A stretch of DNA of 64,000 bases from Amycolatopsis sp. cg9. GTDB lineage: Bacteria; Actinomycetota; Actinomycetes; Mycobacteriales; Pseudonocardiaceae. Numbering within the stretch: the first letter of the stretch is position 1; every line of letters begins with the position of its first letter. The notes below the pieces were generated by a model. It was not told the DNA's origin and did no database searches. It saw nothing but the letters and a program-made list of their open reading frames with translations. A program made the position numbers and the translations under genes. This document shows positions 15,982 through 30,688 of the stretch, one piece after another. Where the stretch lies: the NCBI RefSeq assembly GCF_041346945.1, contig NZ_CP166850.1:7486501-7550500 (forward strand), in the 5' to 3' direction.

Positions 15982-17478
15982 ATGCGAGACGAGCCCGCGC
16001 TGTGGCTGTTCGCCGACCAGCTCGGGCCGCACTTCCACAGCACGCCCGAGCACCGGCACCGGGACGTCCTGGTGATCCGCTCGGCCGCGGCCTTCGCCGC
16101 GAAACCCTTCCACCGCCAGAAACTGCACCTGGTCCAGGCCGCGCTGCACCGGCTCGCCGCCGACCTCGGCGACCGCGTCACGCTGATCGACGCTCCCGAC
16201 TACCGCACCGGCTTGCGCCGCTTCGGGCGGCCGGTCGTGGTGCACGAACCGACGTCGCACGCGGCCGACGCCTTCGTCCGGCGGCTGCACGGCGAAGGCG
16301 TGGTGGCGGAAATCCGGCCGACGCCCGGGTTCGTGCTGTCCAAAGCGGACTTCGCGGAGTGGGCCGCCGGGCGGACCCGGTTCGTCATGGAGGACTTCTA
16401 CCGCGACCAGCGCCGGAAGTTCGGGGTGCTGCTCGAAGCCGACGGCGAACCCGAAGGCGGGCAGTGGAACTACGACCACGACAACCGGCAGCCCCCGCCG
16501 AAGACCACCCGCCTCGACGTCCCCGCGCCGTGGCACCCGCGGGAGAACGAGATCGACGACCGCGTCCGCGCCGGCCTCGACGCGGCCGAGCGCGCGGGGG
16601 AGATCCACCCGGTCGGCGTGGACGGGCCGCGGCAGTTCGCCGTCGGGCACGACGAAGCCCAGCGTGCGCTCAAGCGGTTCCTCGACCACCGGCTGCCGGT
16701 GTTCGGGCCGCACCAGGACGCGATGCTGACCCACGACTGGGCGATGGCGCACGCGCTGCTGTCCGTCCCGCTCAACCTCGGGCTGCTCGACCCGCGGGAC
16801 GTCGTCCGGAAGGCGGAGGAGCGGTACCGGGCCGGTGACGCGCCGCTGAGCAGCGTCGAGGGGTTCGTCCGGCAGGTGCTGGGCTGGCGTGAATGGGTGT
16901 GGCACCTGTACTGGCACCACGGGCCGGAGTACCTGCGCCGCAACGCTTTGCAGGCCCGGCGGAAGCTGCCGGAGTGGTGGCGGACGCTGGACGCCGACGC
17001 CGTCGAAGCGGCCTGCCTGCGCACCGCGCTCGCCGGCGTCCGCGACCGCGGCTACGCCCACCACATCGAGCGCCTGATGGTGCTGGGCAACCACGCGCTG
17101 CAGCGCGGCTACGACCCGGGCGAGCTCAACCGCTGGTTCGCGACGGCGTTCGTCGACGGGTTTCCCTGGGTGATGCCGGCCAACGTGATCGGCATGAGCC
17201 AGTACGCCGACGGCGGGGTCGTCGGGACCAAGCCGTACGCCGCCGGGGGCGCCTACATCAACCGGATGAGTGACCACTGCCCGGGATGCGTGTTCGACCC
17301 GAAGAAACGGACCGGGCCGGACGCGTGCCCGTTCACCGCGGGCTACTGGGCGTTCCTCGACCGGAATGCCGGGCGGCTGAAGGGAAATCACCGGATGCGG
17401 CAGCCGTTGAGCGGCCTCGAGCGGCTGGCGGACCGGGCCGAGGTGGTCGCCCGGGAGGCGGAGCGCGACCACTTCTGA
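15982..17478 (+). CDS. Iron-sulfur bacterial cryptochrome/photolyase (PhrB-type)
   Basis: The 498-aa protein belongs to the FeS-BCP group of prokaryotic (6-4) photolyases. It has the N-terminal antenna domain (ALWLFADQLGPHF) and the FAD-binding helical domain (WREWVWHLYW, LMVLGNHALQRGYDP, WVMPANVIGMSQYADGG). Four cysteines, C345, C433, C436 and C449, have the same spacing as the [4Fe-4S] ligands I recall for Agrobacterium PhrB (350, 438, 441, 454). It would repair UV photoproducts with light. The tail is basic. It follows the MarR gene by 9 bases, so stress or light regulation through that gene is possible. Confidence 0.93.
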   Translation: MRDEPALWLFADQLGPHFHSTPEHRHRDVLVIRSAAAFAAKPFHRQKLHLVQAALHRLAADLGDRVTLIDAPDYRTGLRRFGRPVVVHEPTSHAADAFVRRLHGEGVVAEIRPTPGFVLSKADFAEWAAGRTRFVMEDFYRDQRRKFGVLLEADGEPEGGQWNYDHDNRQPPPKTTRLDVPAPWHPRENEIDDRVRAGLDAAERAGEIHPVGVDGPRQFAVGHDEAQRALKRFLDHRLPVFGPHQDAMLTHDWAMAHALLSVPLNLGLLDPRDVVRKAEERYRAGDAPLSSVEGFVRQVLGWREWVWHLYWHHGPEYLRRNALQARRKLPEWWRTLDADAVEAACLRTALAGVRDRGYAHHIERLMVLGNHALQRGYDPGELNRWFATAFVDGFPWVMPANVIGMSQYADGGVVGTKPYAAGGAYINRMSDHCPGCVFDPKKRTGPDACPFTAGYWAFLDRNAGRLKGNHRMRQPLSGLERLADRAEVVAREAERDHF

Positions 17479-17561
17479 GTTCGCACCATCGTGTGACTAG
17501 CCGGGTGGGGCGGGCTCTCTTACGGTTGTTGTCTCCCATTCCCCGGCGAAGGCGATCCCCC

Positions 17562-18704
17562 ATGCCCGACGCAGATCCGCGCGCCGGCGTGCTGTCCAAG
17601 CGCGCCCTCGTGACCGCGTCCCACGCGGTGGAGCGCGCGGCACTGGCCGAAGGTGCGGGCGCCGACACGGTCGTGTTCGCGCTGTTCCAGCGGCTCCCGT
17701 ACTTCGAGCGCGAACGGGAGGTGTACGCCCGGATCGCGCGGCGGGCGGCGGTCACGGTGGTCGGCATGGTCGACTCCGGCCGCCCCGACCTGCCGCACGG
17801 CGTCACCCCGGTGCTGCTGCGCCCGGACGAGCCGATGGCACGGGAGTGGTCGGTGGCCGTGCTATCGCCGACGTTCGGCGCGTCCGTCGTCGCGCAGGAC
17901 CTCGACGAGATCGACCCGCAGGCGTCCGCGGTCGAAGCGGCCCGGCTGTTCCGCGGCCGCTGGGGACTGCGCCGCGACGAGGCGTACGCCGAAGTGGTCC
18001 GCCTCCGCGACGCGATGGGCGACCGCCTGCCCCCGGCGGTCCGGCGCAAGGTCGGCGAAGTCCTGGCCTCGGTCGAGACCCCGGCCGCGCTCGACGTCGA
18101 AAGCCGCGCCGAGGCCGCGCTGCGGCACGTGGCGGCCAGGCTGGACAAAGCCCGGTCGCGCGCGGAACCGCGTCCGGCGACCGGCCCGGCCGTCGACCCG
18201 GACACCGGCCTCGACACCATGGCGGGCATCCAGTCCTGGCTCGGCGACGCGACCGACACCGTCCCGCTGGGCCTGGTCTTCGTCGCGGTCGACGACCCCG
18301 TGGCGGTCGAGCGGCGGCACGGCACCCGCATCCGCATGCACACCGAGCAGAACATCGCCGATCTCCTGCGCGACGGCCTGCGCCCGCTCGACCGCGCGGT
18401 CCGGCTCGGGCCGGGGGAGTTCCTGGTCGTCCAGCCCGCGGTGCACCCGGCCGAGCTGACCGACCGCAGCCGCCGCCTGGAACACCGCCTGGCGGCGCTG
18501 CACGCGACCTACCCGTTCGTCGACCTGCACCCCCGCACGACGACGTTGCTGACCCGACGCCGTCCGCTGCCGCTGCAGAGCCTGCGGGCCCAGCTGCGCG
18601 AGGTCCCGGCGGTGACGCTGTGGCCGCCGAGCCAGGGTTCGCTCCCGCTCCCGGTAGCCCGCCCGGTCGCGCTGCGGTCGGGAGCGGGCGAGTGGTTCCG
18701 CTGA
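17562..18704 (+). CDS. DICT sensory domain protein with degenerate GGDEF domain
   Basis: I chose the ATG at 17562 (MPDADPRAGVLSKRALVTAS), since the longer frame runs back into the photolyase gene. Residues 1-200 fit the DICT domain (LFQRLPYFEREREVYARIARRAAVTVVG, then WSVAVLSPTFGASVVAQDL, then AVEAARLFRGRWGLRRDEA), linked with light and nucleotide signalling. Residues about 205-350 look like a GGDEF domain (DPDTGLDTMAGIQSWL, then LGLVFVAVDDPVAVERRHG). The catalytic loop reads LGPGEFLVV, so cyclic-di-GMP synthesis is doubtful and it may bind GTP or c-di-GMP instead. It follows the photolyase by 83 bases. Confidence 0.78.
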   Translation: MPDADPRAGVLSKRALVTASHAVERAALAEGAGADTVVFALFQRLPYFEREREVYARIARRAAVTVVGMVDSGRPDLPHGVTPVLLRPDEPMAREWSVAVLSPTFGASVVAQDLDEIDPQASAVEAARLFRGRWGLRRDEAYAEVVRLRDAMGDRLPPAVRRKVGEVLASVETPAALDVESRAEAALRHVAARLDKARSRAEPRPATGPAVDPDTGLDTMAGIQSWLGDATDTVPLGLVFVAVDDPVAVERRHGTRIRMHTEQNIADLLRDGLRPLDRAVRLGPGEFLVVQPAVHPAELTDRSRRLEHRLAALHATYPFVDLHPRTTTLLTRRRPLPLQSLRAQLREVPAVTLWPPSQGSLPLPVARPVALRSGAGEWFR

Positions 18705-18716
18705 GCGTATAACGGC

Positions 18717-20177
18717 CTATACGGCGGGCGAGGTTTCCACCCGCGTTTTCCGGCCACGGCACAGCACAGAGGCGCCGACCGCGAGCGCGAACAAGCCCGC
18801 CGCGACACCGGCCGCTACCTGGACCCCCGCCGTGCAGGCCGCGCGGGCCGCCGCGAGCAGCGCGTCCGCCGCCGCCAGCCCCCGCGAAGCCGCTTCCGCC
18901 TGGGCCGGACCGGCCGCCGCCAGCCGCGCCGCCGCCTCCGGGACCCCCGGCGGCAGCACCAGCCGCCCCGCGTACACCGCTGCCGCGAGGGAACCGAACA
19001 CCGTCGTGCCCAGGCCCGCGCCCAGCTCGTAGCCCGTCTTCTCGACCGCCGCCGCGCCTCCCGCCCGCTCGGCCGGGGCCGCCGCGAGCAGGGTGTCCGT
19101 GCTCGACGTCAGCGACAGCGCCATCCCGAACCCGGCCGCGACGAGCCACCACGGCGCCGTCACCGCCCCGGTGGCCGGCGCCAGCAACGCCCCCGCCGTC
19201 ACGGCGAAGCCGGCCGTGCGGACCCGCGCGTTGCCGAAGCGGGAGAGCAGGCCGGGTGCCACCACGCTGCCGGCCGCCGACGCCCCGAGCACCAGCAGCA
19301 GCCGCGCCGCCGCGGCCGTCGGGGACAGGCCGAGCACCACCTGGAGGTACTGGGCCAGCAGCAGGCCGAGGCCGACTAGCGTGCTCATCACCAGCAGCAC
19401 CCCGCCCACCGCGCCCGGCACCCCCGGCCGCCGGAACAACGTCAAGTCCAGCAACGGGACCGCCGCCCGGCGCTGGCGGCGCACGAAGAGCCCGAGGAGG
19501 ACACCGCCGGCCGCCGCGGCCGCGAAGCCGCCCCCCGACGGCCCGGCCGCGAAGGCGATGCCGAGCACGCCGCCGGCGGCCAGCAGCGCGCTGAGCGCGT
19601 CCCACGGCTCCCGCCCCGGCGGAGACCGCGGCAGCCACCGCAGCGCCGCGACGACCGCGGCGAGGATCACCGGCGGGTTGACCAGGAACGTCGCCCGCCA
19701 GCCCCACGCCTCGACGAGCACCCCGCCGAGCACCGGCCCGAACACCGAGCCGGCGCCGGCGACTCCGCTGCACACCGCGATCGCCGTACGACGCTGCCGC
19801 TGCCCCGGGAACAGCTCCCGCAGCAGCGACATCGTCACCGGCATGATCATCGCCCCGCCGCAGCCGAGCACCGCCCGCGCGGCGAGCAGCGCCGGGACCC
19901 CGGGCGCGAACGCGCACCCGAGCGAGGCCAGCCCGAACACCGCGTAGCCGGCGACGAGCACCCGGCGCCGTCCGCAGCGGTCGCCGAGCGTGCCGGCCGG
20001 CAGCAGCAGCGGGGCCGCGGTGAGCGGGTAGATCGCGACGATCCACACCTGCGCGGCGGCGCCCGGCCGCAGCTGCCGCACGAGGTCGGGCAGCGCCACG
20101 TGCAGCACGGTCGCGTCCACCGCCACCAGGAACAACCCGGCCCCGAGCACGGCCAGCAGCGGCCAGGCGCGGGTCAC
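18717..20177 (-). CDS. MFS exporter, EmrB/QacA type
   Basis: The 486-aa transporter has about 14 membrane spans. Family motifs include VAVDATVLHVALPDLVRQL in span 1, GTLGDRCGRRRVLVAGY (motif A) and GSVFGPVLGGVLVEAWGWRATFLVN (motif C, antiporter group). It would export a hydrophobic product using proton motive force. The GTG start at 20177 overlaps the stop of the polyketide synthase (GTGA), so it is almost certainly co-expressed. Its likely cargo is the product of the synthase, or a precursor. The last part (VAAGLFALAVGASVLCRGRKTRV) is a final span and basic tail. Confidence 0.9.
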   Translation of the reverse strand: MTRAWPLLAVLGAGLFLVAVDATVLHVALPDLVRQLRPGAAAQVWIVAIYPLTAAPLLLPAGTLGDRCGRRRVLVAGYAVFGLASLGCAFAPGVPALLAARAVLGCGGAMIMPVTMSLLRELFPGQRQRRTAIAVCSGVAGAGSVFGPVLGGVLVEAWGWRATFLVNPPVILAAVVAALRWLPRSPPGREPWDALSALLAAGGVLGIAFAAGPSGGGFAAAAAGGVLLGLFVRRQRRAAVPLLDLTLFRRPGVPGAVGGVLLVMSTLVGLGLLLAQYLQVVLGLSPTAAAARLLLVLGASAAGSVVAPGLLSRFGNARVRTAGFAVTAGALLAPATGAVTAPWWLVAAGFGMALSLTSSTDTLLAAAPAERAGGAAAVEKTGYELGAGLGTTVFGSLAAAVYAGRLVLPPGVPEAAARLAAAGPAQAEAASRGLAAADALLAAARAACTAGVQVAAGVAAGLFALAVGASVLCRGRKTRVETSPAV

Positions 20178-23100
20178 GGCCACAGCAGGCCCGCCAGGTG
20201 CCGCGCGACGACGTCGACGTGCGGCGGGTCGATCACCGAAAGGTGGTGCGCGGCCACCGGGACGATCTCCAGCCGCGGGCACAGCTCCGCCCACCCCGCC
20301 GCGAGGTCCGTGCGCGAGTACCGCGGTTCCATCGCGAGCCCGGCGGCGTACGGCTCGGTCGCCCGGTAGAGCACGACCCGGCCGTCGTAGCGGCGCGGGG
20401 TCCCGCGTTCGGCGGCCAGGGTGTCCAAAAAGGACTGACGCTGGTGCCGCAGCACGCCGGGGCTGAGCAACCCGGCTTCGGCCACCCGCCGCATGGTCAG
20501 CTCGATCTGGTCTTCCTCGGGCAGCGGCGCGAGTTCGTCGTGCCCGAGCCGGACCGCGCGGCCGTAGGTGCCTTCGACGTACCCGGTGAACCGCAGGAAC
20601 CGCCGCGCCGACGACGCGCGCGGGTCGAGGTCCGGTTCCGGCAGCGGCAGCATGGTGTCGATCAGCGCGACGAGCTCGACCGGTTCCCCTTCGTCGGCGA
20701 GCCGGGCGGCGACGCCGTAGGCCAGCGCCCCGCCGAACGACCACCCGGCGAGCCGGTAGGGCCCGTGCGGCCGGCGCGCGCGGACCAGCGGGAGCAACCG
20801 TTCGACGCGCTCTTCGATGCTGGTCCCCGGCACGCGTTCGAACCCGGCGCACGGCACGCCGGCGGGGAGCCGGTCCAGCAGCGGACGGTAGACGGCGCAG
20901 GTGCTGCCGCCGGGGTGGAACAGCAGGAGCGGGGCGGTTCCGGCGTCCCCGGGTTTCAGGACGCGTTCTTGCCGCGTGTCGAGGATCGCCCGCGCGACCT
21001 CGGCGATGGCGGCGAGCGAGTCGTGCTTCAGCAGCTCGGCGGGTTCGACGGGGGTGTCGAGTTCGGCGGTGAGGCCGTCGGCGAACAGCCGCGCGAGCTG
21101 TTCCGGCTGCGCGGTGCCGGTCAGCCGGAGGTGCGTGCCGCCGGGGTCGGCGCCGGTGTGTTCGCGCCACAGCCGGAGGACGAGCCGGTCGGCGGCGTCC
21201 CAGGCGCGGCCGCGGGCCGGCCGGGGCGGGTCGTCGGCGCGGGGTGCGAGATCGCGGTTGAGGTCGGCGAGGGTGGCGCCGCGGAGGAAGGCGGCGGGGT
21301 CGGGGTCGGCACCGAGGTCCCGCCGGACGGCTTCGCGGATCCGGTTCGCCATCAGGGAGTCGAGGCCGAGTTCGACGAGGGGGACGTCGGCGTGGAGGCG
21401 GTCGGGGGTGAGGCCCATGACGGCGGCGACGATCTCGGTGAGCCGGTCGCCACCGGGCGGCGCGGTCCCCGGATCGGCGGCCGGCGGTGCCGGCGCGGCC
21501 GGAGCGGACTCTTCGGTGTACCAGTGCCGCACGTGGCGCCACGGCATCGGGGGCACGTCGGTCACCCGCGCGCCGTCGCCCGGCGCGGAGAGGGTGATCC
21601 GGGTGCCCGCGCAGTACAGCTCCGCCGCGGCCGCGGCGAACGCGCGGACCTCGTCCTGGCCGCGGCGCAGGGTGCCGGTCACGACCGCGTCCGCGCCGAG
21701 GGTGCGGGCCAGCGACCCCCGCAGGATCGGGTGCGGCGAGACCTCCACGAACACGCGGTGCCCGTCCGCGGCGGCCGCCGCCACGGCCTGCCGGAACCGC
21801 ACCGGGCGGCGCAGGTGCGCGGCCCAGTACCCGGCGTCGAAGTCCGGCAGCTCGCGCGGGTCGGCGAGGACCGTGTCGTACCACGGCACCAGCGGCCGCC
21901 GCCCGCCCAGCTCGGCGAGCGCGGCGCGCAGCGCGGGCAGGACCGGCTCGACCCCGCCCGAATGCCCGGCGACGTCCACCGGCAGCCGCCGCGCGCTCCG
22001 CCCGGCCGCCGTCAGCTCGGCGACGAGCCGGTCGACCGCCGCCGCGTCCCCGGCCACCGTCACCTGCCCCGGCGCGGAATCGACGGCGAGCTCGACACCG
22101 GGCCAGGCGTCGGCTTCGTCCGGCGTCAGCTCGACGGCGGCCATCGCCCCGCCCGCGTCGACGGCGCCGAGCAGCCGCGCGCGGGTCGCGACCAGGTGGA
22201 CGGCCTCGTCGGCGCTGAGCACCCCGCTCACCACGGCGGCGGCCGCGGACCCGAGCGAATGCCCCACGACGGCGGCCGGCCGCACCCCGAGGGCCTCCCA
22301 CCGGGCGGCCAGCGCGACCTGCGTCCCGAAGATCGCCAGCTGCGTCCCGGACAGCGAACCGGGCTCGCCGGAGGTGAGCAGCGCGCGCAGCGACTGCCCG
22401 GTGTGCTCGGCGAACGGCGCACCGAGCTTGTCGACCTGCGCGGCGAACGCGGGTTCGGCCGCGAGGAGGCCGCGCCCCATCCCGGCCCACTGCGAACCGT
22501 GACCGGAGAAGACGAACACCGGCCCTTCCCCGCCGACGGCACTCCCGGCCGCAGCACCGGCGGGCAGCGGATCGGCCCCCGCCCCGACCGCGCGGAGCAG
22601 CGCGCCGAGTTCACCGAGATCCCCGGCGACGACGGCGGCCCGGTGCGGACCGCCGTCGTCCCGCCGGAAGAGGGTGTGGGCGACATCGGCGAGGTGAGCG
22701 CGCTGCCCTGCGGGGGAGTCGAGCCACCGGGCGAGCTGGGCGGCCCGCTCGGTGAGCCGGTCCCGGGTACGGGCGGACAGCAGCCCGATCCGGACGCCGT
22801 CGCTTCCGGCTGGGGGAACGGGGCCGCCGCCGGGGGTGGGGCGGTGCCTGTGGTCTTCGGACGCGGTGGGGCGGCCGGCGGCTCGCGGTTCGTTGGGCGC
22901 GGTTGTGCCGCTGGGCCGAGCCGAGCCGGTGAGCCTCGCTGTGCCGCCGCCGGGGGTGGGGCGGCGCCCGTGCTGCTCGGTTGCGGTGGGGCGGCCGGCG
23001 GCTCGCGGCTCGCTGGTCCGGGCCGTGGCGCTGGGCTCGGCGGTGTCGCTGAGCCGGACCGAGCCGGCGAGCCCGGTCGTGCCGCGGTCGGCCGTGCGGC

Positions 23101-24643
23101 GGCGCTCGGCTGACCGCGGCCCACCACAAGCCACCGGGGCGGCGGCCTCCTCCAGCACCACGTGCGCGTTCGTCCCGCCGAACCCGAACGCCGACACCCC
23201 GGCGACCGCGCGTCCGCCGCGGCGTGGCCACGGAGTCGCCTCGCGGACCACCCGCAACCCGAGCTCCTCGAACGCGATGTGCGGGTTCGGCGCGGCGAAG
23301 TGCAGCTGTGGCGGGACCTCGCCGTGCACCATCGCCAGCACCACCTTGATCAGCCCGGCGATCCCCGCGGCGGCCTCGGCGTGCGCGATGTTCGTCTTCA
23401 CCGACCCGATCAGCAGCGGCGACCGCTCGTCCCGCCCCGCTCCCAGCACCGCGCCGAGCGCCCGGGCCTCGATCGGATCGCCGAGCAGCGTGCCGGTCCC
23501 GTGCGCCTCCACGTAGTCCACTGTGGACGGATCGAGCCCGCGGTAGGCCTCCCGGAGCATCGCCTGCTGCGCCGCCGGGTTGGGGGCGGCCAGCCCGTGG
23601 GAACGGCCGTCGGAATTGACCGCCGACGCGCGGATCACCGCCAGCACGCGGTCGCCGTCGAGTTCGGCGTCGGCCAGGCGCTTGAGCACCACGACGCCGC
23701 AGCCCTCGGCGCGGGCGATGCCGTCCGCGGCCGCGGAGAACGTCTTGCAGCGGCCGTCCGCCGCGAGCAGGCCCGCCGCGGAGAACGCCGCCGTAGGGCC
23801 GGGCAGCAGCATCAGGTTGACGCCGGCGGCCAGCGCCACGTCGGCGTCGCCGTCGCGCAGCGCGCGCACCGCGTGGTGCACCGCCACCAGCGAAGACGAG
23901 CACGCGGTGTCCACCGCCACGCTCGGCCCGCGCAGGTCGAAGACGTACGACAGCCGGTTCGCCGCGATGCTGCCCGCCGCGCCGGTCGCCGTCCACAGGT
24001 CCGGGGCGCCGCCGGTCATCGTGAGGTGGCCGTAGTCGTGCGTGGCGATGCCGGTGAACACGCCGGTGCGGCTGCCGCGCAGCGACGACGGCGCGATCCC
24101 GGCGTGCTCCAGCGCCGCCCACGTCACCTCCAGGAGCATCCGCTGCTGCGGGTCCATCGTCGCGGCTTCGCGCGGGGTGATGCCGAAGTGCTCGGCGTCG
24201 AACCCGGCGACGTCGTCGAGGAACCCGCCCAGCACCGGGGCCGCGCCGGCGGTCCACCGCCCCGGCGGCGCGGTCCGGACGGCGTCCCGCCCGGTCCGCA
24301 GCAGGTCCCAGTACTCCTCGACGCCGTCCGCGCCGGGGAAGCGGCAGCCGAGACCGACGACGGCGACCGGGTCGGTCCGGCGGCGGTCGGCGGCCGGGGC
24401 GACGGGTTCGGGGCCGGCGCCCGCGGTGAGGCTGCGGGCGAGGTGGTCGATCGTCGGGCTTTCCCACAGCAGCGTCGCGGGCAGCTCGGTGCCGAGCAGG
24501 TCTTCGAGCTCGGCGGCGATCCCGACGGCCTGGCGGGAGGACAGGCCGTAGTCGCCGAGGGGCCGGTCGGGCTCGGCGGTCAGGCCGGTGTGCTCGGCGA
24601 CCGCGTCGAGGAGCCAGCGGCGCAGGGTGTCCGGGTTTCTCAT
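20174..24643 (-). CDS. Pks13-like polyketide synthase, ACP-KS-AT-ACP-TE
   Basis: The 1489-aa cytoplasmic megasynthase has, in order: ACP (Ser36 in DYGLSSRQAV); KS (about 90-500, Cys248 in DTACSSSL, His381 in EAHGTGT, His421 in KTNIAHAEAAAG); AT (about 705-1015, Ser796 in GHSLG); ACP (Ser1096 in LGLDSLMA); and thioesterase (about 1235-1489, Ser1302 in GWSFGG, His1466/1467 in VAAHHLSVIDPPH). This order is that of mycobacterial Pks13, which joins an acyl chain from FadD32 to a carboxyacyl chain and releases it onto a sugar. There is no KR, DH or ER, so a beta-keto product is expected. The AT specificity box reads VAGH (891-894), unlike malonyl HAFH or methylmalonyl YASH. The KS-AT linker holds a tandem repeat. 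It overlaps the FAAL upstream and the MFS downstream. Confidence 0.92.
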   Translation of the reverse strand: MRNPDTLRRWLLDAVAEHTGLTAEPDRPLGDYGLSSRQAVGIAAELEDLLGTELPATLLWESPTIDHLARSLTAGAGPEPVAPAADRRRTDPVAVVGLGCRFPGADGVEEYWDLLRTGRDAVRTAPPGRWTAGAAPVLGGFLDDVAGFDAEHFGITPREAATMDPQQRMLLEVTWAALEHAGIAPSSLRGSRTGVFTGIATHDYGHLTMTGGAPDLWTATGAAGSIAANRLSYVFDLRGPSVAVDTACSSSLVAVHHAVRALRDGDADVALAAGVNLMLLPGPTAAFSAAGLLAADGRCKTFSAAADGIARAEGCGVVVLKRLADAELDGDRVLAVIRASAVNSDGRSHGLAAPNPAAQQAMLREAYRGLDPSTVDYVEAHGTGTLLGDPIEARALGAVLGAGRDERSPLLIGSVKTNIAHAEAAAGIAGLIKVVLAMVHGEVPPQLHFAAPNPHIAFEELGLRVVREATPWPRRGGRAVAGVSAFGFGGTNAHVVLEEAAAPVACGGPRSAERRRTADRGTTGLAGSVRLSDTAEPSATARTSEPRAAGRPTATEQHGRRPTPGGGTARLTGSARPSGTTAPNEPRAAGRPTASEDHRHRPTPGGGPVPPAGSDGVRIGLLSARTRDRLTERAAQLARWLDSPAGQRAHLADVAHTLFRRDDGGPHRAAVVAGDLGELGALLRAVGAGADPLPAGAAAGSAVGGEGPVFVFSGHGSQWAGMGRGLLAAEPAFAAQVDKLGAPFAEHTGQSLRALLTSGEPGSLSGTQLAIFGTQVALAARWEALGVRPAAVVGHSLGSAAAAVVSGVLSADEAVHLVATRARLLGAVDAGGAMAAVELTPDEADAWPGVELAVDSAPGQVTVAGDAAAVDRLVAELTAAGRSARRLPVDVAGHSGGVEPVLPALRAALAELGGRRPLVPWYDTVLADPRELPDFDAGYWAAHLRRPVRFRQAVAAAAADGHRVFVEVSPHPILRGSLARTLGADAVVTGTLRRGQDEVRAFAAAAAELYCAGTRITLSAPGDGARVTDVPPMPWRHVRHWYTEESAPAAPAPPAADPGTAPPGGDRLTEIVAAVMGLTPDRLHADVPLVELGLDSLMANRIREAVRRDLGADPDPAAFLRGATLADLNRDLAPRADDPPRPARGRAWDAADRLVLRLWREHTGADPGGTHLRLTGTAQPEQLARLFADGLTAELDTPVEPAELLKHDSLAAIAEVARAILDTRQERVLKPGDAGTAPLLLFHPGGSTCAVYRPLLDRLPAGVPCAGFERVPGTSIEERVERLLPLVRARRPHGPYRLAGWSFGGALAYGVAARLADEGEPVELVALIDTMLPLPEPDLDPRASSARRFLRFTGYVEGTYGRAVRLGHDELAPLPEEDQIELTMRRVAEAGLLSPGVLRHQRQSFLDTLAAERGTPRRYDGRVVLYRATEPYAAGLAMEPRYSRTDLAAGWAELCPRLEIVPVAAHHLSVIDPPHVDVVARHLAGLLWP
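22823..23011 (-). repeat. 120-bp tandem repeat in the KS-AT linker
   Basis: Two near-identical units, protein residues 545-567 and 585-607, both run from EPRAAGRPTA to RPTPGGG with a 40-residue period. The DNA copies are 120 bases apart (for example a shared run starting near 22863 and 22983). A weaker third unit precedes them. The linker is otherwise Pro/Gly/Thr-rich and probably disordered, so copy number can vary without breaking the enzyme. Confidence 0.75.
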
Positions 24644-26355
24644 CGCGCCAGCGCCTTCCCGTAGTCACCGGCGAGGTAGCGGTCGCGGCAGGCGCTGCGC
24701 GCGATCTTGCCGCTCGACGTGCGCGGCACCCGCCCGGCCGGGAGGAGCAGCACGTCCCGCAGCGCGAGCCCGTGCGCGTCGGCGACCAGCCGGCGGACCG
24801 TCGTGGCCAGCGCGCGTTCCGCGGCTTCGGCGAGGTCGGCGTGCGCGCGGTGCTCGGCGACCACGACGACCGCTTCGGTGTCCGCACCCTCGATCGCGAA
24901 GGCGGCGACGCTGCCGGGACGGATCGCCGCGTCGGCCGACGCGGCGGTCGCTTCGACGTCCTGCGGGTAGTGGTTGCGCCCGTCGACGATGATCAGGTCC
25001 TTGATCCGGCCGGCGATGTAGAGCTCGCCGTCGTGCCGGAGGCCGAGGTCGCCGGTCCGCAGCCACGGCCCCGCGGGCAGGCCGCCGTGATCGCCCGCGA
25101 GGCGCGCGCCGAAGGTTTCGGTGCTCTCCAGGGGCTTCTGCCAATACCCCTCGCCGACGTTGGGGCCGTGCACCCAGATTTCCCCGACCGAGCCGTCGGG
25201 GAGCGCGACGGCGGTCGCCGGGTCGACGAGCGCGACCAGCTGCCCGGCCGGGACACCGCAGGCGACCAGCCGGACCCCGGCTCCGGCGGGCCGCGAGGTG
25301 CCGGTCGCGAGGGCGTCGCGGTCGAACGTCGTGACGCGCGGGGCGGCGGCGGGCCCGGTGGTGACGAAGACGGTCGCTTCGGCCAGGCCGTACGCCGGGC
25401 GCGTCTTGTCCGGGGTGTAGCCGGCGTCGGCGAAGGCGGCGTGGAACCGGTCGAGGACGTCCGGGTTGATCGGCTCGGCGCCGTTGACGATCGCCGTGAC
25501 GCGGCCGAGCCGCAGCCGGGCGCGGTCGGCGTCGCGGATCCGGCTCGCGCAGTAGTGGAAGGCGAAGTTGGGGGCGGCGCTCCACGCGCCGGCGTGGTCG
25601 CCGAGCAGCTCCAGCCAGCGGACGGGCCGCTCGATGAAGGCCAGCGGGTCCAGCAGCACCGACCGCAGGCCCAGCGCCAGCGGCGTGAGCAGGCCGAGCA
25701 CGAGGCCCATGTCGTGGAACAGCGGCAGCCACGAGACGGTGGTGGCCGCGGCCGGGTCCAGGCCGAGGCCGCGGACGGCCTGGGTGACGTTGGCGAGGAC
25801 GTTGGCGTGCGTCAGCACGACTCCGGCCGGGGTGCGGGTCGACCCCGACGTGTACTGCAGGTACGCGACGTCGGCCGGGACCGCCGCGGGAGCCGGCCAC
25901 GAGCGCACCGGGCCGGGGCGGTCCGCCGCGACGACCGGGACGTCGCCGACGAAGTCTTCGACCGCGGTCTGCGCCGACGTCGTGGTGACGACGGCCGCGG
26001 GCGCGCAGTCGGCGAGCACCGCGGCGAGCCGTCCCGCGTGGCCGGGCAGGCCCGGGTCGAACAGCGGCACCGCGATCGCGCCGGCCGTGATCGCGGCGAG
26101 GAAGCCCACGACGTAGTCCGTGCCCTGCGGGCAGAGCACGGCGACCCGGTCGCCCGGCCGGACCGGGAGCGCGCCCGCGACGGCGTCGACGCGTTCACGC
26201 AGCTGCCGCCAGGTGAGGGTGCGGCGCCGCCCGGCGCGGTCGGTGGCGTAGTCGGCGAAGGTCAGGGCGGGGGCGTCGGGGGTGGTCGCGGCCCAGTGGT
26301 GCAGGCACGCGGTCAGGGTGCCGCCGCCGATCGCCGGGAAGTTCTCGTCGGACAT
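24640..26355 (-). CDS. FadD32-like fatty acyl-AMP ligase
   Basis: The 571-aa ANL enzyme adenylates a fatty acid and passes it to the N-terminal ACP of the partner synthase. Seen motifs: LQYTSGSTRTPAGVVLTHANV (FAAL form of the P-loop), SWLPLFHDMGLVLG, RPAYGLAEATVFVTTG, VGEIWVHGPNVGEGYWQKP, WLRTGDLG, IAGRIKDLIIVDGRNHYPQDVE and the catalytic C-terminal Lys in PRTSSGKIAR. These are FAAL rather than acyl-CoA-synthetase features and match FadD32 closely. The start has a clear AGGAGG 5 bases upstream. Its stop overlaps the polyketide synthase start (ATGA), which supports a dedicated pair. Confidence 0.92.
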   Translation of the reverse strand: MSDENFPAIGGGTLTACLHHWAATTPDAPALTFADYATDRAGRRRTLTWRQLRERVDAVAGALPVRPGDRVAVLCPQGTDYVVGFLAAITAGAIAVPLFDPGLPGHAGRLAAVLADCAPAAVVTTTSAQTAVEDFVGDVPVVAADRPGPVRSWPAPAAVPADVAYLQYTSGSTRTPAGVVLTHANVLANVTQAVRGLGLDPAAATTVSWLPLFHDMGLVLGLLTPLALGLRSVLLDPLAFIERPVRWLELLGDHAGAWSAAPNFAFHYCASRIRDADRARLRLGRVTAIVNGAEPINPDVLDRFHAAFADAGYTPDKTRPAYGLAEATVFVTTGPAAAPRVTTFDRDALATGTSRPAGAGVRLVACGVPAGQLVALVDPATAVALPDGSVGEIWVHGPNVGEGYWQKPLESTETFGARLAGDHGGLPAGPWLRTGDLGLRHDGELYIAGRIKDLIIVDGRNHYPQDVEATAASADAAIRPGSVAAFAIEGADTEAVVVVAEHRAHADLAEAAERALATTVRRLVADAHGLALRDVLLLPAGRVPRTSSGKIARSACRDRYLAGDYGKALAR

Positions 26356-26368
26356 GGGTCCTCCTTGG

Positions 26369-27034
26369 CTAGCGGCCCAGCCGCGAGGCCGCGTGCTGCC
26401 ACGCGGCGACGGCCAGGGCGTCGAGGTCGAGGTCGGTCGCGCCCGCGTCGCGGAGCACGACCAGGACGTCGTCGGCGGCGATGGCGACGGTGCGCAGGCG
26501 CAGCCCTGGCAGCTCGGCCGGCTGCCCGGGCAGGGTCAGGACCTGCTGGTAGGAAAGGGTTTCCGCGCCGGGGACGCTGGGCGCGGTACCGGTGGTGAGT
26601 GTCGAGACGGTGGGGATGTCCTCGTCGGACAGCGTGACGCTCGCGCACTGGCGCAGCTTCGCGGTCCACGCGGCGAGGCCGGGCGGGTGCGGGGTGCGCG
26701 CGACCAGTTCGCTCAGCTGACCGCCGGGGACGGCGGTCTGGAAGCCCTGGCCGGTGGCGGCGGCCCGGAGCAGCCTGCCGTGCACGACGTCGGCGCAGTC
26801 GCCGCCGGCTTCCTTCGGGTCCAGAGTGGACAGTGCGGTGGCGACGTCGAACGCGGCACGCGGCGCCGGTGGGCCGGGGATCGCCCCGACCGGCAGCAGC
26901 GCGGCCGGGGGGACCGGCGGCGGCGCGGGAGGGCCCGGCGCGCCTTCGGCGGGTCCGCTGGAGCCGGAAATGGCGGCGGCGGCGACCACGAGCGCGGCCG
27001 CGCGGAACGGGGGGAAACGATTTCGGGCGGCCAT
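26369..27034 (-). CDS. Secreted protein of unknown function at the head of the synthase operon
   Basis: The 221-aa protein has a signal peptide (MAARNRFPPFRAAALVVAAAAISGSS) and a Pro/Ala-rich linker. A C-terminal domain of about 150 residues follows, with two cysteines (GGDCADVV and LRQCASVTL) likely to form a disulfide. The fold is not recognised; the layout faintly resembles mycobacterial sensor-type exported proteins, which is only an impression. It lies 13 bases upstream of the fatty acyl-AMP ligase and is first in a four-gene leftward operon, so it may help move or sense the lipid outside the membrane. Confidence 0.75.
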   Translation of the reverse strand: MAARNRFPPFRAAALVVAAAAISGSSGPAEGAPGPPAPPPVPPAALLPVGAIPGPPAPRAAFDVATALSTLDPKEAGGDCADVVHGRLLRAAATGQGFQTAVPGGQLSELVARTPHPPGLAAWTAKLRQCASVTLSDEDIPTVSTLTTGTAPSVPGAETLSYQQVLTLPGQPAELPGLRLRTVAIAADDVLVVLRDAGATDLDLDALAVAAWQHAASRLGR

Positions 27035-27409
27035 GGACGACCCTTTCGGAAGTATTCTCGGGGGATTTCGGGTCCCTGCGCTGGGACACCCACCCGGGCG
27101 GCGGTGAGGACGGCCGAACCCGGCGACAGGGCGAGGCTAGGGCAAGAAATCGGTTACCGGAAGGATCTCAAGATCGCGTAAACGCCACTCGTGTACACCG
27201 TGTGACCTGCTAGATCGCAGGTTACTGGCGAGTTACTGGCACGGGCGTCCGACTTTGGTGACCGAGCGTGCTCGTGGACTCACCCGTCCGGGGGAGTTTG
27301 TTTGCCTGCAATTCACATTGTCCGGTCGTGTGGTGAACGAGACAATTGCGGTTCGCGGCCTGATCACCTTAACTGGGCCGAACCGTCGGGAGTTCGGAAA
27401 GGAAAGCGC
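27035..27409. promoter_or_regulatory. 375-bp bidirectional promoter region of the lipid locus
   Basis: No gene is seen here. The region separates the leftward synthase operon from the rightward esterase-SDR-glycosyltransferase operon. Two copies of GTTACTGGC (27221-27229 and 27232-27240) lie 11 bases apart, one helical turn, and a related CGGTTACCGG palindrome is at 27151-27160. A relatively AT-rich stretch (27296-27395) precedes the esterase gene. These are candidate binding sites of a shared regulator; none is encoded next to them. Confidence 0.45.
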
Positions 27410-28405
27410 ATGCGCATGTTTTCGAGATGGCTCGCCGCGCTGGTGGCCGGGGCGTGCGTGCTGCCCGGTCTTCCCGCCGCGGCGGCGGACGGGCCGCGCG
27501 CCGACGACGGCTCGCACGTCGTCGCCGAGACCACTGTGGACGGTGACGCGCGGGTGCTCGACCTCACCGTGCGCTCCGCCGGGGTCGGCGCCTACGCGAT
27601 GGTCCGGCTGATCCTGCCCCGGGACTGGGCCGGTCACCCGGACCGGAAGTGGCCGGCGGTGTACCTGCTCGCGGGCGAAACCCGGCTGCAGGACTACCGC
27701 GGCTGGAGCGCCAACACCGACGTGCGGCGGCTGGCCGACGACGCGGACGTGCTGGTGGTGATGCCGGGTTCCGGCCCGGCGGGGTTCTTCAGCGACTGGT
27801 GGAACTACGGCAAGGACATCGCGATGAACCAGTGGGAGACCTTCACCGCAGTCGAGCTCCCGCAGCTGATCGACCGCGGCTACCGCGGCGACGGCCGGCG
27901 CGCGGCGGCGGGGCTCTCCCTCGGCGGCTACGGCGCGATCGAACTCGCCGCGCGGCGCCCCGGCGTCTTCCGCTACGCCGCTTCCTACAGCGGGAACCTC
28001 AACCCGACCGGCCCGACGGGGGAGCTGCTCACCGACGCGATCGTCGCTTCGGCGCACCTGGACCCGGAAGCCCTGTGGGGCGACCGGCGCCGCGAATCCG
28101 CGCGCTGGGAAGCGCACGACCCGCTGGTGAACGCCGAGCGGCTGCGCGGCACCGAGCTGTACCTCTCCGCGGGCAACGGCCTGCCCGGGCCGCTCGACGC
28201 CAAGCTCCCGATCGACGTCCTGCCCGGCGCGATGCTCCTGGAGTTCCTCTGCGGCGGCCAGACCACCGCGATGGCCGAGCGGCTGCGCGCGCTCGGCGTC
28301 CCGGTGACCGCGGACCTCTACGGGCCGGGCACCCACCAATGGGCGTACTGGCAGGAGCAGCTGCACCGGACGTGGCCGCGGATGCTGCAGGTCGTGGCGT
28401 CGTGA
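27410..28405 (+). CDS. Antigen-85-like secreted esterase/acyltransferase
   Basis: The 331-aa protein has a Sec signal (MRMFSRWLAALVAGACVLPG, cleavage near PAAAADG) and an alpha/beta-hydrolase domain. It matches antigen 85 mycolyltransferases: VVMPGSGPAGFFSDWWNYG, QWETFTAVELPQLI, GLSLGGYGAIELA with Ser170, MLLEF with Glu278, and YGPGTHQWAYWQEQL with His309. The GTH-W-YW-QL pattern is characteristic. Ser-Glu-His spacing is close to that of Ag85C. Antigen 85 moves mycolates between trehalose and arabinogalactan outside the membrane; here the likely acyl group is the product of the neighbouring synthase. A GGAAAGGAAAG ribosome site fits the ATG at 27410. Confidence 0.85.
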   Translation: MRMFSRWLAALVAGACVLPGLPAAAADGPRADDGSHVVAETTVDGDARVLDLTVRSAGVGAYAMVRLILPRDWAGHPDRKWPAVYLLAGETRLQDYRGWSANTDVRRLADDADVLVVMPGSGPAGFFSDWWNYGKDIAMNQWETFTAVELPQLIDRGYRGDGRRAAAGLSLGGYGAIELAARRPGVFRYAASYSGNLNPTGPTGELLTDAIVASAHLDPEALWGDRRRESARWEAHDPLVNAERLRGTELYLSAGNGLPGPLDAKLPIDVLPGAMLLEFLCGGQTTAMAERLRALGVPVTADLYGPGTHQWAYWQEQLHRTWPRMLQVVAS

Positions 28406-29235
28406 CGCGCGCGTCCTACGTGGTCACCGGCGCGTCGAGCGGCATCGGGCGCGCGTGCGTGGCGGAGCTGGTCCGCCGGGGCGCCCACGTGTGGGCGAGC
28501 GTCCGGACCGACGGCGACGAGGCGGAACTCGCCCGCGCGTACGGCACCGCGGTCACGGTGCTGCGGATGGACCTGCGCGACGCGGCATCGGTCGCGGCGT
28601 GCGGCGAGCGGGTCGCGGCCGGGGGACCGGTGCGCGGCCTGGTGAACAACGCCGGCCTCGCGCGGCCGGGCCCGCTCGAGTACGTACCGCTGGAGGCGTT
28701 CCGGGAGCAGCTGGACGTGAACGTCACCGGCCAGCTCGCGGTCACCCGCGCGATGCTCCCGGCCCTGCGCATCGCCGAGACGGCCCGGGTGGTGACGGTC
28801 GGCTCGATCGGCGGCCGGATCGCCGGGCCGATGGTGGGGCCCTACCACACGTCGAAGTTCGCACTGGTCGGCTTGACCGACAGCCTGCGCGCGGAGCTGG
28901 CCCCGGAGGGCATCGAGGTGGTCCTGGTCGAGCCGGGCGCGGTGGCGACGGAGATCTGGCCCCGGGCCCGCGCGGCGGCGGAGGAGGTGCGCGCGGCCCT
29001 CCCGGCGGCGGGCCTCGAGCGCTACTCGGCACAACTGGCGGCGGCGGAGCGAAGCGCGGCCCGTTCGGCACGCACGGGTGTACCACCGCGGCGGGCGGCG
29101 GAGGTGGTGGTCCGCGCGTTGACCACCCGCCGCCCGGCGCCGCGGTACCTGGTGGGCACGGACGCCCGGGTGGCGGCGGTACTGGCGAACCTGCCGTTCC
29201 GCCTGCGTTACCGGTTGACGGCGGCGAAGCGATGA
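28402..29235 (+). CDS. Short-chain dehydrogenase/reductase of the lipid locus
   Basis: The 277-aa classical SDR has the NAD(P) motif TGASSGIG (residues 8-15), NNAG, a catalytic Ser in VTVGSIGGR and YHTSK, then VEPGAVATEIW. It starts at a GTG overlapping the stop of the antigen-85-like gene (GTGA), so both are made together. In mycolate pathways the beta-keto ester released by Pks13 is reduced by an SDR (CmrA); this gene could supply that step, since the synthase lacks a ketoreductase. That role is inferred from context only. Confidence 0.85.
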   Translation: MTRASYVVTGASSGIGRACVAELVRRGAHVWASVRTDGDEAELARAYGTAVTVLRMDLRDAASVAACGERVAAGGPVRGLVNNAGLARPGPLEYVPLEAFREQLDVNVTGQLAVTRAMLPALRIAETARVVTVGSIGGRIAGPMVGPYHTSKFALVGLTDSLRAELAPEGIEVVLVEPGAVATEIWPRARAAAEEVRAALPAAGLERYSAQLAAAERSAARSARTGVPPRRAAEVVVRALTTRRPAPRYLVGTDARVAAVLANLPFRLRYRLTAAKR

Positions 29236-29297
29236 CCCGCCGTGTGGTGGCGGGTGGCCGACCGATGCCGCGCCTGGGCCGCGGGCGTGGCGGCCGC

Positions 29298-29467
29298 GCG
29301 ATGACTCGCCCGGCGGCGGTCGCGCGTGCGGCGCGGCCGAGTGATGGCGCGCCCGGCGGCGGTCGTGTGTGCGGCGGCCAAGCGATGACGCGCCCGGCGA
29401 GGGTGCGTGCCTGGGGCGGCCGCGCGCTGACCCGCCCCGCCGCGGTCGCTCGTGCGGCGGCCACCCG
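29298..29467 (+). repeat. Degenerate 41-43 bp tandem repeat before the glycosyltransferase start
   Basis: A start-like core (GATGACNCGCC and variants) recurs with its ATG-equivalent base at 29301, 29344, 29385, 29427 and finally at 29468, the real start. Between cores are GCGGTCG, GTGCGGC and GGCCG segments. The spacings are 43, 41, 42 and 41. Weaker copies may lie at 29265 and 29232. The whole stretch separates the SDR stop from the glycosyltransferase. Confidence 0.65.
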
Positions 29468-30688
29468 ATGACCCGCCGGGTCATGATCATCGCGCCCGGC
29501 TCGCGCGGCGACGTCCAGCCCTGCGTCGCGCTCGGCCGGGGGCTCGTTGCCGACGGTGATCGGGTCAAGATCCTTGCCGCGCCGCGGTTCCGATCCCTCG
29601 TCGAAGACCACAACCTCACCTTCGCGCCGCTCTCCGCCGATCCTGCGGCCATCCTCGGCTCGGCCGCGGGGCGAGCGTGGACCGCGGGCGGCCCGCTGAA
29701 GTTCGTGAGCGGGCTGCGCGAAGTCCTCCGCCCCGTGCTGGCCCGGCTGCTCGCCGACGCCCGCACCGGCACCGCCGGGGCGGACCTGATCCTCGCGCCC
29801 ACCCTCGGCTTCCTCGGCACGCACCTGGCCGCCCACCACGGTGTCCCGCACGCCGAACTGCACTACCAGCCCAGCGTGCCGACCCGAGCCTTCGCCCACC
29901 CGCTGCTCCCCGGCGCCGCCCGGCTGGGGCCGTGGGGCCGGCAGCTGAGCTTCCGGGTGGTCGACGCGCTGGCCTGGCAGCTCCTGCGGCCCGAAATCGA
30001 CCGCTGGCGCAGCGGAACGCTCGGCCTGCCCGCCGCGGGGGTGCGCGGGCCGCGGCGGGGGGCGCCGGTGCTCTGCGGGTTCTCCGGCGCCGTCGTGCCG
30101 CGGCCGCCGGACTGGCCCGCGCACGTCCACGTCACCGGCTACTGGTTCCTCGACGCCGGTCGGTGGCGCCCCGGCCCGAAGCTGCGCGACTTCCTCGCCG
30201 CCGGTCCGCCGCCGGTGTACGTCGGGTTCGGCAGCATGCGCCCGGCCGAAGCGGCGAAGACGTTCGAGGTCGTCCGCACTTCCTTGCGCCGCGCGGGGGT
30301 GCGCGGCCTGCTCGCCACCGAAGGCGACTTCGACGCCGACGACCTGCTGACCGTCGCCGACGTCCCGCACGACTGGCTGTTCCCGCGCACGGCGGGCGTC
30401 GTCCACCACGGTGGTGCCGGGACCACCGCGGCGGCTTTGCGCGCCGGGGTCCCGGCGCTGGTGTGCCCGGTCTTCTCCGACCAGCCCTACTGGGGCGAGC
30501 GGGTGTCCCGGCTCAGCGCCGGGCCGAAACCGTTGCCGCTCAAGGCACTCGACGCGGACCGGCTGACCGCCCGGCTGCGGGAGCTCACCGGCAACCCGCT
30601 CTTCCGGCGCGGCGCGCAGTACGTCGGCGCGCGGCTGCGGGCCGAGGACGGGGTGGCCCACGCCGTTTCGGTGCTGCGGCGGGCTTAG
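29468..30688 (+). CDS. GT1-family (sterol/MGT-type) glycosyltransferase
   Basis: The 406-aa GT-B enzyme begins MTRRVMIIAPGSRGDVQPC, the opening typical of lipid and macrolide glycosyltransferases. It contains the nucleotide-sugar binding region VYVGFGSM, DVPHDWLFPRTAGVVHHGGAGTTAAAL and PVFSDQPYWGERV. The HHGGAGTT motif places it with UDP- or dTDP-sugar enzymes acting on hydrophobic acceptors. It is last in the operon after the esterase and SDR and probably glycosylates the lipid or polyketide. Longer frames upstream run through the tandem repeat and are not believable. Its stop overlaps the convergent regulator gene by 4 bases. Confidence 0.9.
   Translation: MTRRVMIIAPGSRGDVQPCVALGRGLVADGDRVKILAAPRFRSLVEDHNLTFAPLSADPAAILGSAAGRAWTAGGPLKFVSGLREVLRPVLARLLADARTGTAGADLILAPTLGFLGTHLAAHHGVPHAELHYQPSVPTRAFAHPLLPGAARLGPWGRQLSFRVVDALAWQLLRPEIDRWRSGTLGLPAAGVRGPRRGAPVLCGFSGAVVPRPPDWPAHVHVTGYWFLDAGRWRPGPKLRDFLAAGPPPVYVGFGSMRPAEAAKTFEVVRTSLRRAGVRGLLATEGDFDADDLLTVADVPHDWLFPRTAGVVHHGGAGTTAAALRAGVPALVCPVFSDQPYWGERVSRLSAGPKPLPLKALDADRLTARLRELTGNPLFRRGAQYVGARLRAEDGVAHAVSVLRRA

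Follow-up and report, generated by a model that had tools for sequence, protein, structure and literature searches.

In mycobacteria, as passages of PMC7261415 describe, FadD32 loads the meromycolyl chain onto an N-terminal acyl carrier protein (ACP) domain, an acyl-CoA carboxylase and the acyltransferase (AT) domain load a carboxylated chain, the ketosynthase (KS) domain condenses the two and the thioesterase (TE) domain transfers the resulting beta-keto product to trehalose; it is then reduced by CmrA and moved to arabinogalactan by antigen 85 (Ag85). The mycolic acid locus Rv3799c-Rv3804c comprises AccD4, Pks13, FadD32, the cutinase Rv3802, Ag85D and Ag85A (part of PMC2625445); a legend in the same paper has the cluster conserved in all actinomycetes, and the organisms named in the text are mycobacteria, corynebacteria, nocardia and rhodococci. 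According to a 2018 study of envelope genes (passages of PMC6194230), mycolic acids occur exclusively in Corynebacteriales and how the mycomembrane arose is a mystery. Here we describe a gene block at positions 18717-30688 of a 64,000-nucleotide stretch of the 10.6-Mb genome of Amycolatopsis sp. cg9 (C1:7486501-7550500, hereafter the window). Of the mycobacterial steps, all but that of the carboxylase have a counterpart there, and on balance the block probably encodes a pathway of the Pks13/FadD32/Ag85 kind that would make an alpha-branched beta-hydroxy lipid and transfer it outside the cell. Among the papers listed from the open-licence literature we saw none that describes loci of this type in bacteria other than mycolate makers, a scope that leaves out most subscription journals and is no proof of absence.

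A divergent seven-gene block in Amycolatopsis

The six genes that an earlier note on this DNA had named are all present by Pfam, PDB and NCBIfam matches, and a gene for a secreted protein extends the block to seven (Table 1). They form two divergent operons, the major facilitator superfamily (MFS) exporter, synthase, ligase and secreted protein facing the esterase, short-chain dehydrogenase/reductase (SDR) and GT1 glycosyltransferase. The synthase and ligase genes overlap by 4 bases, as do the esterase and SDR genes, and the MFS and synthase genes overlap by 10 bases if the chosen MFS start is right. As in Rv3799c-Rv3804c, a FadD32-type ligase adjoins an ACP-KS-AT-ACP-TE synthase and an Ag85-like enzyme is encoded nearby, so that the same general chemistry would be expected. 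Unlike the mycobacterial locus, the block contains no AccD, cutinase or MmpL gene, is divided into divergent operons, scores below the family cut-offs and carries its own SDR, GT1, MFS exporter and PknH-like secreted protein in a host that is no known mycolate maker. The statement that accD4 and MmpL are not adjacent holds for the block, and both occur at a sister locus in the same genome (L021).

The whole synthase has its named relatives in 18 Amycolatopsis records, with 79-86% identity in the best segment. Sixteen of these preserve the seven genes and their arrangement; in the other two, L073 and L085, the contig stops within the ligase gene. The divergent operons stay together in related genomes, and the outcome by which the earlier note would have been refuted, that they are unrelated there, did not occur. 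Eight genomes of the host's own genus among the matches listed from an order-wide draw (the host included) carry the TE of the block at ≥85% identity. Every one of them also has one or more additional, more distant TEs of the family; in three genomes (G000, G054 and G225) this second kind was mapped as a locus of the long form described below.

The host was correctly read from the sequence as an Amycolatopsis and not a known mycolate maker, absence of mycolates being reported in passages of PMC11004387 and PMC6194230. The former describe A. solani as lacking mycolic acids by thin-layer chromatography (TLC), with arabinose and galactose among its whole-cell sugars, and the latter say that Pseudonocardiales lack mycolates yet make arabinogalactan. 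According to a passage of PMC4048454, the genome paper on A. mediterranei U32 treated the genetic basis of mycolic acids. The host genome encodes one Emb-type arabinosyltransferase and is rich in polyketide synthases (PKS), with 97 ketoacyl-synthase-family matches.

Table 1. Genes of the block, in window positions
Feature	Position	Strand	Basis
MFS exporter, DHA2/EmrB (SmvA-like) type	18717..20183	-	Pfam and NCBIfam matches
Pks13-type synthase ACP-KS-AT-ACP-TE, 1489 aa	20174..24643	-	Pfam, PDB and NCBIfam matches, trees
Fatty acyl-AMP ligase, FadD32 kind, 571 aa	24640..26355	-	PDB and NCBIfam matches, tree
Secreted 221-aa protein, candidate PknH-extracellular/TiME-like fold (seventh gene)	26369..27034	-
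Antigen-85/PS1-like esterase or acyltransferase; signal peptide judged by eye	27410..28405	+	PDB match, motifs
SDR	28402..29235	+	Generic SDR models
GT1 glycosyltransferase, sterol-glucosyltransferase-like	29468..30688	+	PDB match

The GC content of the block is 0.766 compared with 0.716 in the rest of the window, and a smaller rise occurs at eight congener loci. Downstream of the MFS gene, at 15982-18704, lie a photolyase-related gene and a DICT-domain gene; the former also adjoins the block in L074, L075 and L087, and the latter in L087.

Kinship of the synthase, ligase and esterase

The synthase consists of an N-terminal carrier domain, KS, AT, a second ACP and TE, lacking ketoreductase (KR), dehydratase (DH) and enoyl reductase domains, which is the order of Pks13. 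Its best PDB match is Pks13 itself, aligned over four stretches (N-terminal ACP/KS, AT, ACP and TE; 858 bits), and its best NCBIfam model is also Pks13 (NF040607), at 1228.5 bits against an equivalog cut-off of 2100. FadD32-type ligases are likewise the best PDB matches of the ligase, which scores 537.5 bits with the NCBIfam FadD32 model (cut-off 975). Being below both cut-offs, the two proteins are relatives rather than members by curated tests. A profile search of the host genome returned no match anywhere above the Pks13 cut-off, and a canonical Pks13 elsewhere in the host was rejected as an explanation. The model is itself unspecific: at E ≤ 1e-200 it matches 15 of 16 other genomes, often through modular PKS, and two of the 16 exceed the cut-off through modular PKS with neighbouring matches summed, so that even a pass would not prove a Pks13.

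Catalytic motifs are retained throughout the synthase (Cys/His/His in the KS, Ser/Asp/His in the TE and GHSLG in the AT). The AT substrate motif is VAGH in all three sequences of the Amycolatopsis short-form locus compared; six of six Pks13 sequences have GASH or GAGH, and nine of 14 second-group long forms have GAGH. HAFH, which marks malonyl specificity, was found in none of the 30 AT sequences compared, and YASH, which marks methylmalonyl specificity, in one (L027). The KS-AT linker contains a 120-base repeat in 1.9 copies (22823-23055), and the window synthase is longer (1489 aa) than those of L041-L044 (1398-1403 aa).

Trees place the synthase and ligase with their mycolate-pathway namesakes, supports being mostly Shimodaira-Hasegawa-like approximate likelihood ratio (SH-aLRT) values from quick searches. 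In a KS tree of 98 rows, a group of 56 made up of ten Pks13, 38 long forms, seven window-type synthases and one from Streptomyces (L095) stands apart from 42 other KS (SH-aLRT 97). This bears out the proposed grouping of the KS with Pks13 and not with ordinary polyketide enzymes, and an ordinary modular PKS was ruled out on the same tree. The suggested FadD32 kinship of the ligase was borne out too, in an 88-row tree that contains no named FadD26/FadD28-type reference: the cluster ligases form a 59-row group (96), including the lone ligases L149, L150, L151 and L165; the L032 cluster ligase enters with the next larger group (60 rows, 94), and an additional, distant ligase of L030 is placed elsewhere. 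L149 and L150 are two further ligases of the FadD32 kind in the host genome, and group with ligases of arida-type long loci.

Deeper relationships are less settled. A 47-row concatenate yields a basal polytomy of five lineages in which window-type synthases and Pks13 are not joined; two 26-row trees do join them, with 54/96 support in one and 96 by SH-aLRT alone in the other, and many rows in the concatenated trees differ in letter make-up. Holding Pks13, the window locus and L095 together was not rejected (p-AU from the approximately unbiased test, 0.50 and 0.53 for the two 26-row sets), nor was holding the long forms together (p-AU 0.21, for the first of these sets). Judged from these alignments, the synthase is a Pks13-type relative, and we claim neither sisterhood to Pks13 nor loss of KR and DH from a long form.

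The best PDB match of the esterase is PS1 (3.2e-47), which we take to be a Corynebacterium protein, followed by antigen 85C (3.6e-26). The Ser, Glu and His positions and the HxWxYW motif of the PS1 and antigen 85 mycolyltransferases are retained; HxWxYW is missing at the aligned place in two outgroup esterases, in L034 and in one Ag85 row (L050). In an 80-row tree, the 26 Ag85 sequences and the six of the short-form locus fall into two separate clades (100 each), and by this tree the window esterase is placed outside the Ag85 clade. The order among lineages is unsettled, and of the three outgroup esterases one is nested within them. Nine further Ag85-like esterases in other genomes of the family (L155-L161, L166 and L167) had no Pks13-type synthase beside them in the stretches examined; all of them except L157 form one group with L177 (94).

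The remaining genes are less distinctive. The secreted 221-aa protein recurs in 21 further loci, three of them contigs counted twice, and a PDB profile search with it gave no match. The 25 best of 209 models matching the SDR are generic SDR models, and at E ≤ 1e-35 the SDR has a match in one of six mycolate-type genomes, in which CmrA itself was not identified. The SDR is probably not a CmrA orthologue; of the parallel that the earlier note drew, the presence of an SDR gene stands. The GT1 protein is best matched in the PDB by a sterol 3-beta-glucosyltransferase and weakly matches antibiotic-type glycosyltransferase models. Most of the gap between the SDR stop and the GT1 start is taken up by a 41-base tandem repeat of about 4.5 copies (29289-29477), the unit consensus of which carries ATGACC, so that the GT1 start region seems to have been multiplied; in L041, L042, L043 and L044 the two genes adjoin without a gap. 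The exporter matches Pfam MFS_1 (2.4e-46), and its best NCBIfam model is of SmvA type (293 bits, below the cut-off of 701).

Related loci within and beyond the host family

The TE, ligase and esterase of the block were sought separately in 120 genomes of the same family, the host included. There were 48 strong TE loci in 34 of the genomes, spanning 18 of 46 genera by hand count; within 12 kb of the TE, a ligase was found at 46 and an Ag85-like esterase at 40 of the 48. We mapped 38 loci of a long form, defined by a DH-KR stretch between the AT and the second ACP, among which L034 and L094 are one and the same contig and L031 and L088 are nearly identical. Long-form synthases are about 2000-2200 aa; of the 37 tested, 35 have a KR motif and 20 a DH motif, and Pfam scans confirmed the domains in L021 and L029. 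The ligase, KS, AT, TE and esterase of these sister loci belong to the same families as those of the window and are likewise adjacent. The long forms differ in having KR, and often DH, built into the synthase, in an AccD-type carboxylase that adjoins 18 of the 38, and in having no close match to the window SDR or GT1 in the stretches examined (weak SDR matches of 30-34% in five). An MmpL-family match is found in 15 of the 38 stretches, twelve of them weak (27-38%). In L029 (15977-18229) a fatty acid desaturase and a ferredoxin-type reductase adjoin the ligase-synthase-esterase cluster and may modify its lipid.

The host's own long form, L021 (C1:6574001-6594000), encodes MmpL, an MFS protein assigned by similarity, a ligase, an ACP-KS-AT-DH-KR-ACP-TE synthase, an AccD4-type carboxylase, an Ag85-like esterase and a secretory lipase. 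A separate complete mycolate locus in the host, which the earlier note had named as an outcome that would refute its reading, is matched in part: nothing in the host exceeds the Pks13 cut-off, but L021 is a mycolate-like locus fuller than the block, with its MmpL, AccD and DH/KR synthase. In an AccD tree of 36 rows, the 18 carboxylases of sister loci, three of Streptomyces-type loci and ten AccD4 form a 31-row group (95), outside which fall four other host carboxylases and one of S. alanosinicus.

Across the order, TE matches at E ≤ 1e-25 occurred in 66 of 249 genomes by hand count, distributed among the host's family (20) and the families designated f8 (40), f2 (2) and f13 (4). All ten f8 loci examined carry AccD, a Pks13-type synthase without DH-KR, ligase and Ag85-like genes, and we read f8 as the family of mycolate makers on account of this gene set. 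Among 296 genomes drawn from the whole phylum, the TE occurs at E ≤ 1e-30 in 11, namely the host, eight of f8 and two of f18. The latter family is inferred to be Streptomycetaceae because its AccD groups with that of the named Streptomyces record L095 (100). The two f18 loci (L179 and L180) and L095 resemble the window in combining a reductase-free synthase (1329-1414 aa, no KR or DH match), a ligase and an Ag85-like esterase, and differ in forming a single operon AccD-ligase-synthase-esterase with no match to the window SDR or glycosyltransferase. Pfam confirmed the synthase domains of L095, where the next genes encode a PucR-type regulator and a cutinase that recalls Rv3802c of the mycobacterial locus (part of PMC2625445); L179 also has a PucR-type regulator, the cutinase scan having covered L095.

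A proposed lipid pathway and its alternatives

From the gene content, the catalytic motifs of the synthase and esterase, the kinship to Pks13 and FadD32, the conservation of the block and the second locus with AccD and MmpL, all of which are observed, we infer the substrates, product, acceptor, order of the SDR and GT1 steps, extender supply and extracellular transfer as follows. The ligase would activate a fatty acid and load it onto the N-terminal ACP, and the AT would put an alpha-carboxylated acyl-CoA onto the second ACP, the extender coming from a carboxylase encoded elsewhere, for example at the second locus (G000:C1:6586692). The KS would join both chains and the TE would pass the alpha-alkyl beta-keto chain to an acceptor, perhaps a sugar, while the separate SDR would reduce the keto group to a hydroxyl in the role of CmrA. 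GT1 would add a sugar, and its placement is a guess, as it could glycosylate the hydroxyl or make the acceptor. The MFS pump would export the lipid in place of MmpL3, and the Ag85-like enzyme, working outside the membrane, would transfer the acyl group from one acceptor to another.

The AT motif speaks for such a pathway, as VAGH is close to Pks13's GA[GS]H and differs from HAFH and YASH. Several observations weigh against it: the absence of AccD and MmpL from the block, the sub-threshold scores of synthase and ligase, the position of the esterase outside the Ag85 clade, an SDR that, by its matches, is probably not a CmrA orthologue, the TLC result for A. solani, and an MFS pump and GT1 that fit a diffusible secondary metabolite too. 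Two of the eight Streptomyces-like f18 genomes among the matches listed have the TE, so that at least six of that family do not; together with 34 of 120 in the host's family, this patchy presence suggests an accessory trait more than an envelope necessity.

A diffusible secondary metabolite is the strongest competitor, though in our judgement an unlikely one. The synthase would extend a fatty acid by a single malonyl or methylmalonyl unit, the SDR and GT1 would turn it into a glycosylated beta-hydroxy lipid, and this lipid, exported by the MFS protein, would serve as a signal, surfactant or antibiotic, with the esterase trimming or esterifying it. The DHA2/EmrB-type exporter, the weak antibiotic-type GT1 matches, the patchiness, the block's want of an AccD and the PKS-rich host agree with this; an AT motif that is neither HAFH nor YASH, an esterase retaining the mycolyltransferase-type triad and HxWxYW, and the recurrence of such an esterase beside the synthase in 40 of 48 family loci do not. 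It is improbable, in turn, that the product is a true short mycolic acid, with small amounts of corynomycolate-like acids on arabinogalactan or trehalose missed by chemotaxonomic TLC. The Pks13-like order without KR, the separate reductase and the Ag85-like enzyme would suit it, as would the Emb-type arabinosyltransferase and the arabinose and galactose of an Amycolatopsis (passages of PMC11004387), which also records no mycolates by TLC in A. solani; the lack of MmpL in the block and the scores of synthase and ligase under the mycolate-family cut-offs are further points against it. That an ordinary iterative PKS merely lies beside an unrelated esterase, SDR and glycosyltransferase is very improbable indeed. 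Each single family is common in actinomycetes and the SDR matches are generic, but the arrangement shared by 16 of 18 Amycolatopsis records excludes a chance neighbourhood, the ligase and esterase are linked to the synthase across the family, and the KS stands apart from 42 others; for the ligase, synthase and esterase, which form the core, chance has been refuted, and the link to the SDR and GT1 comes from Amycolatopsis.

A broader interpretation may be entertained, one to which we give somewhat less than even weight. Core mycolate enzymes of FadD32, Pks13, AccD4 and Ag85 type would not be confined to mycolate makers; a broad family, present in Pseudonocardiaceae, in two other families of the same order and in some Streptomyces, would make surface-transferred, alpha-branched "proto-mycolates", and mycolic acids would have recruited one branch of it. 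The Amycolatopsis locus would be a branch with a separate SDR and its own GT1 and MFS route. The existence of a wider family of loci suggests that machinery for such lipids predates the mycomembrane or is separate from it. The same four kinds of enzyme in bacteria without known mycolates would provide living comparators for the origin of mycolic acids, among them soil actinomycetes that can be grown and subjected to gene knock-out, and these loci would also offer, in tractable hosts, naturally occurring versions of Pks13, FadD32 and Ag85, enzymes that include drug targets.

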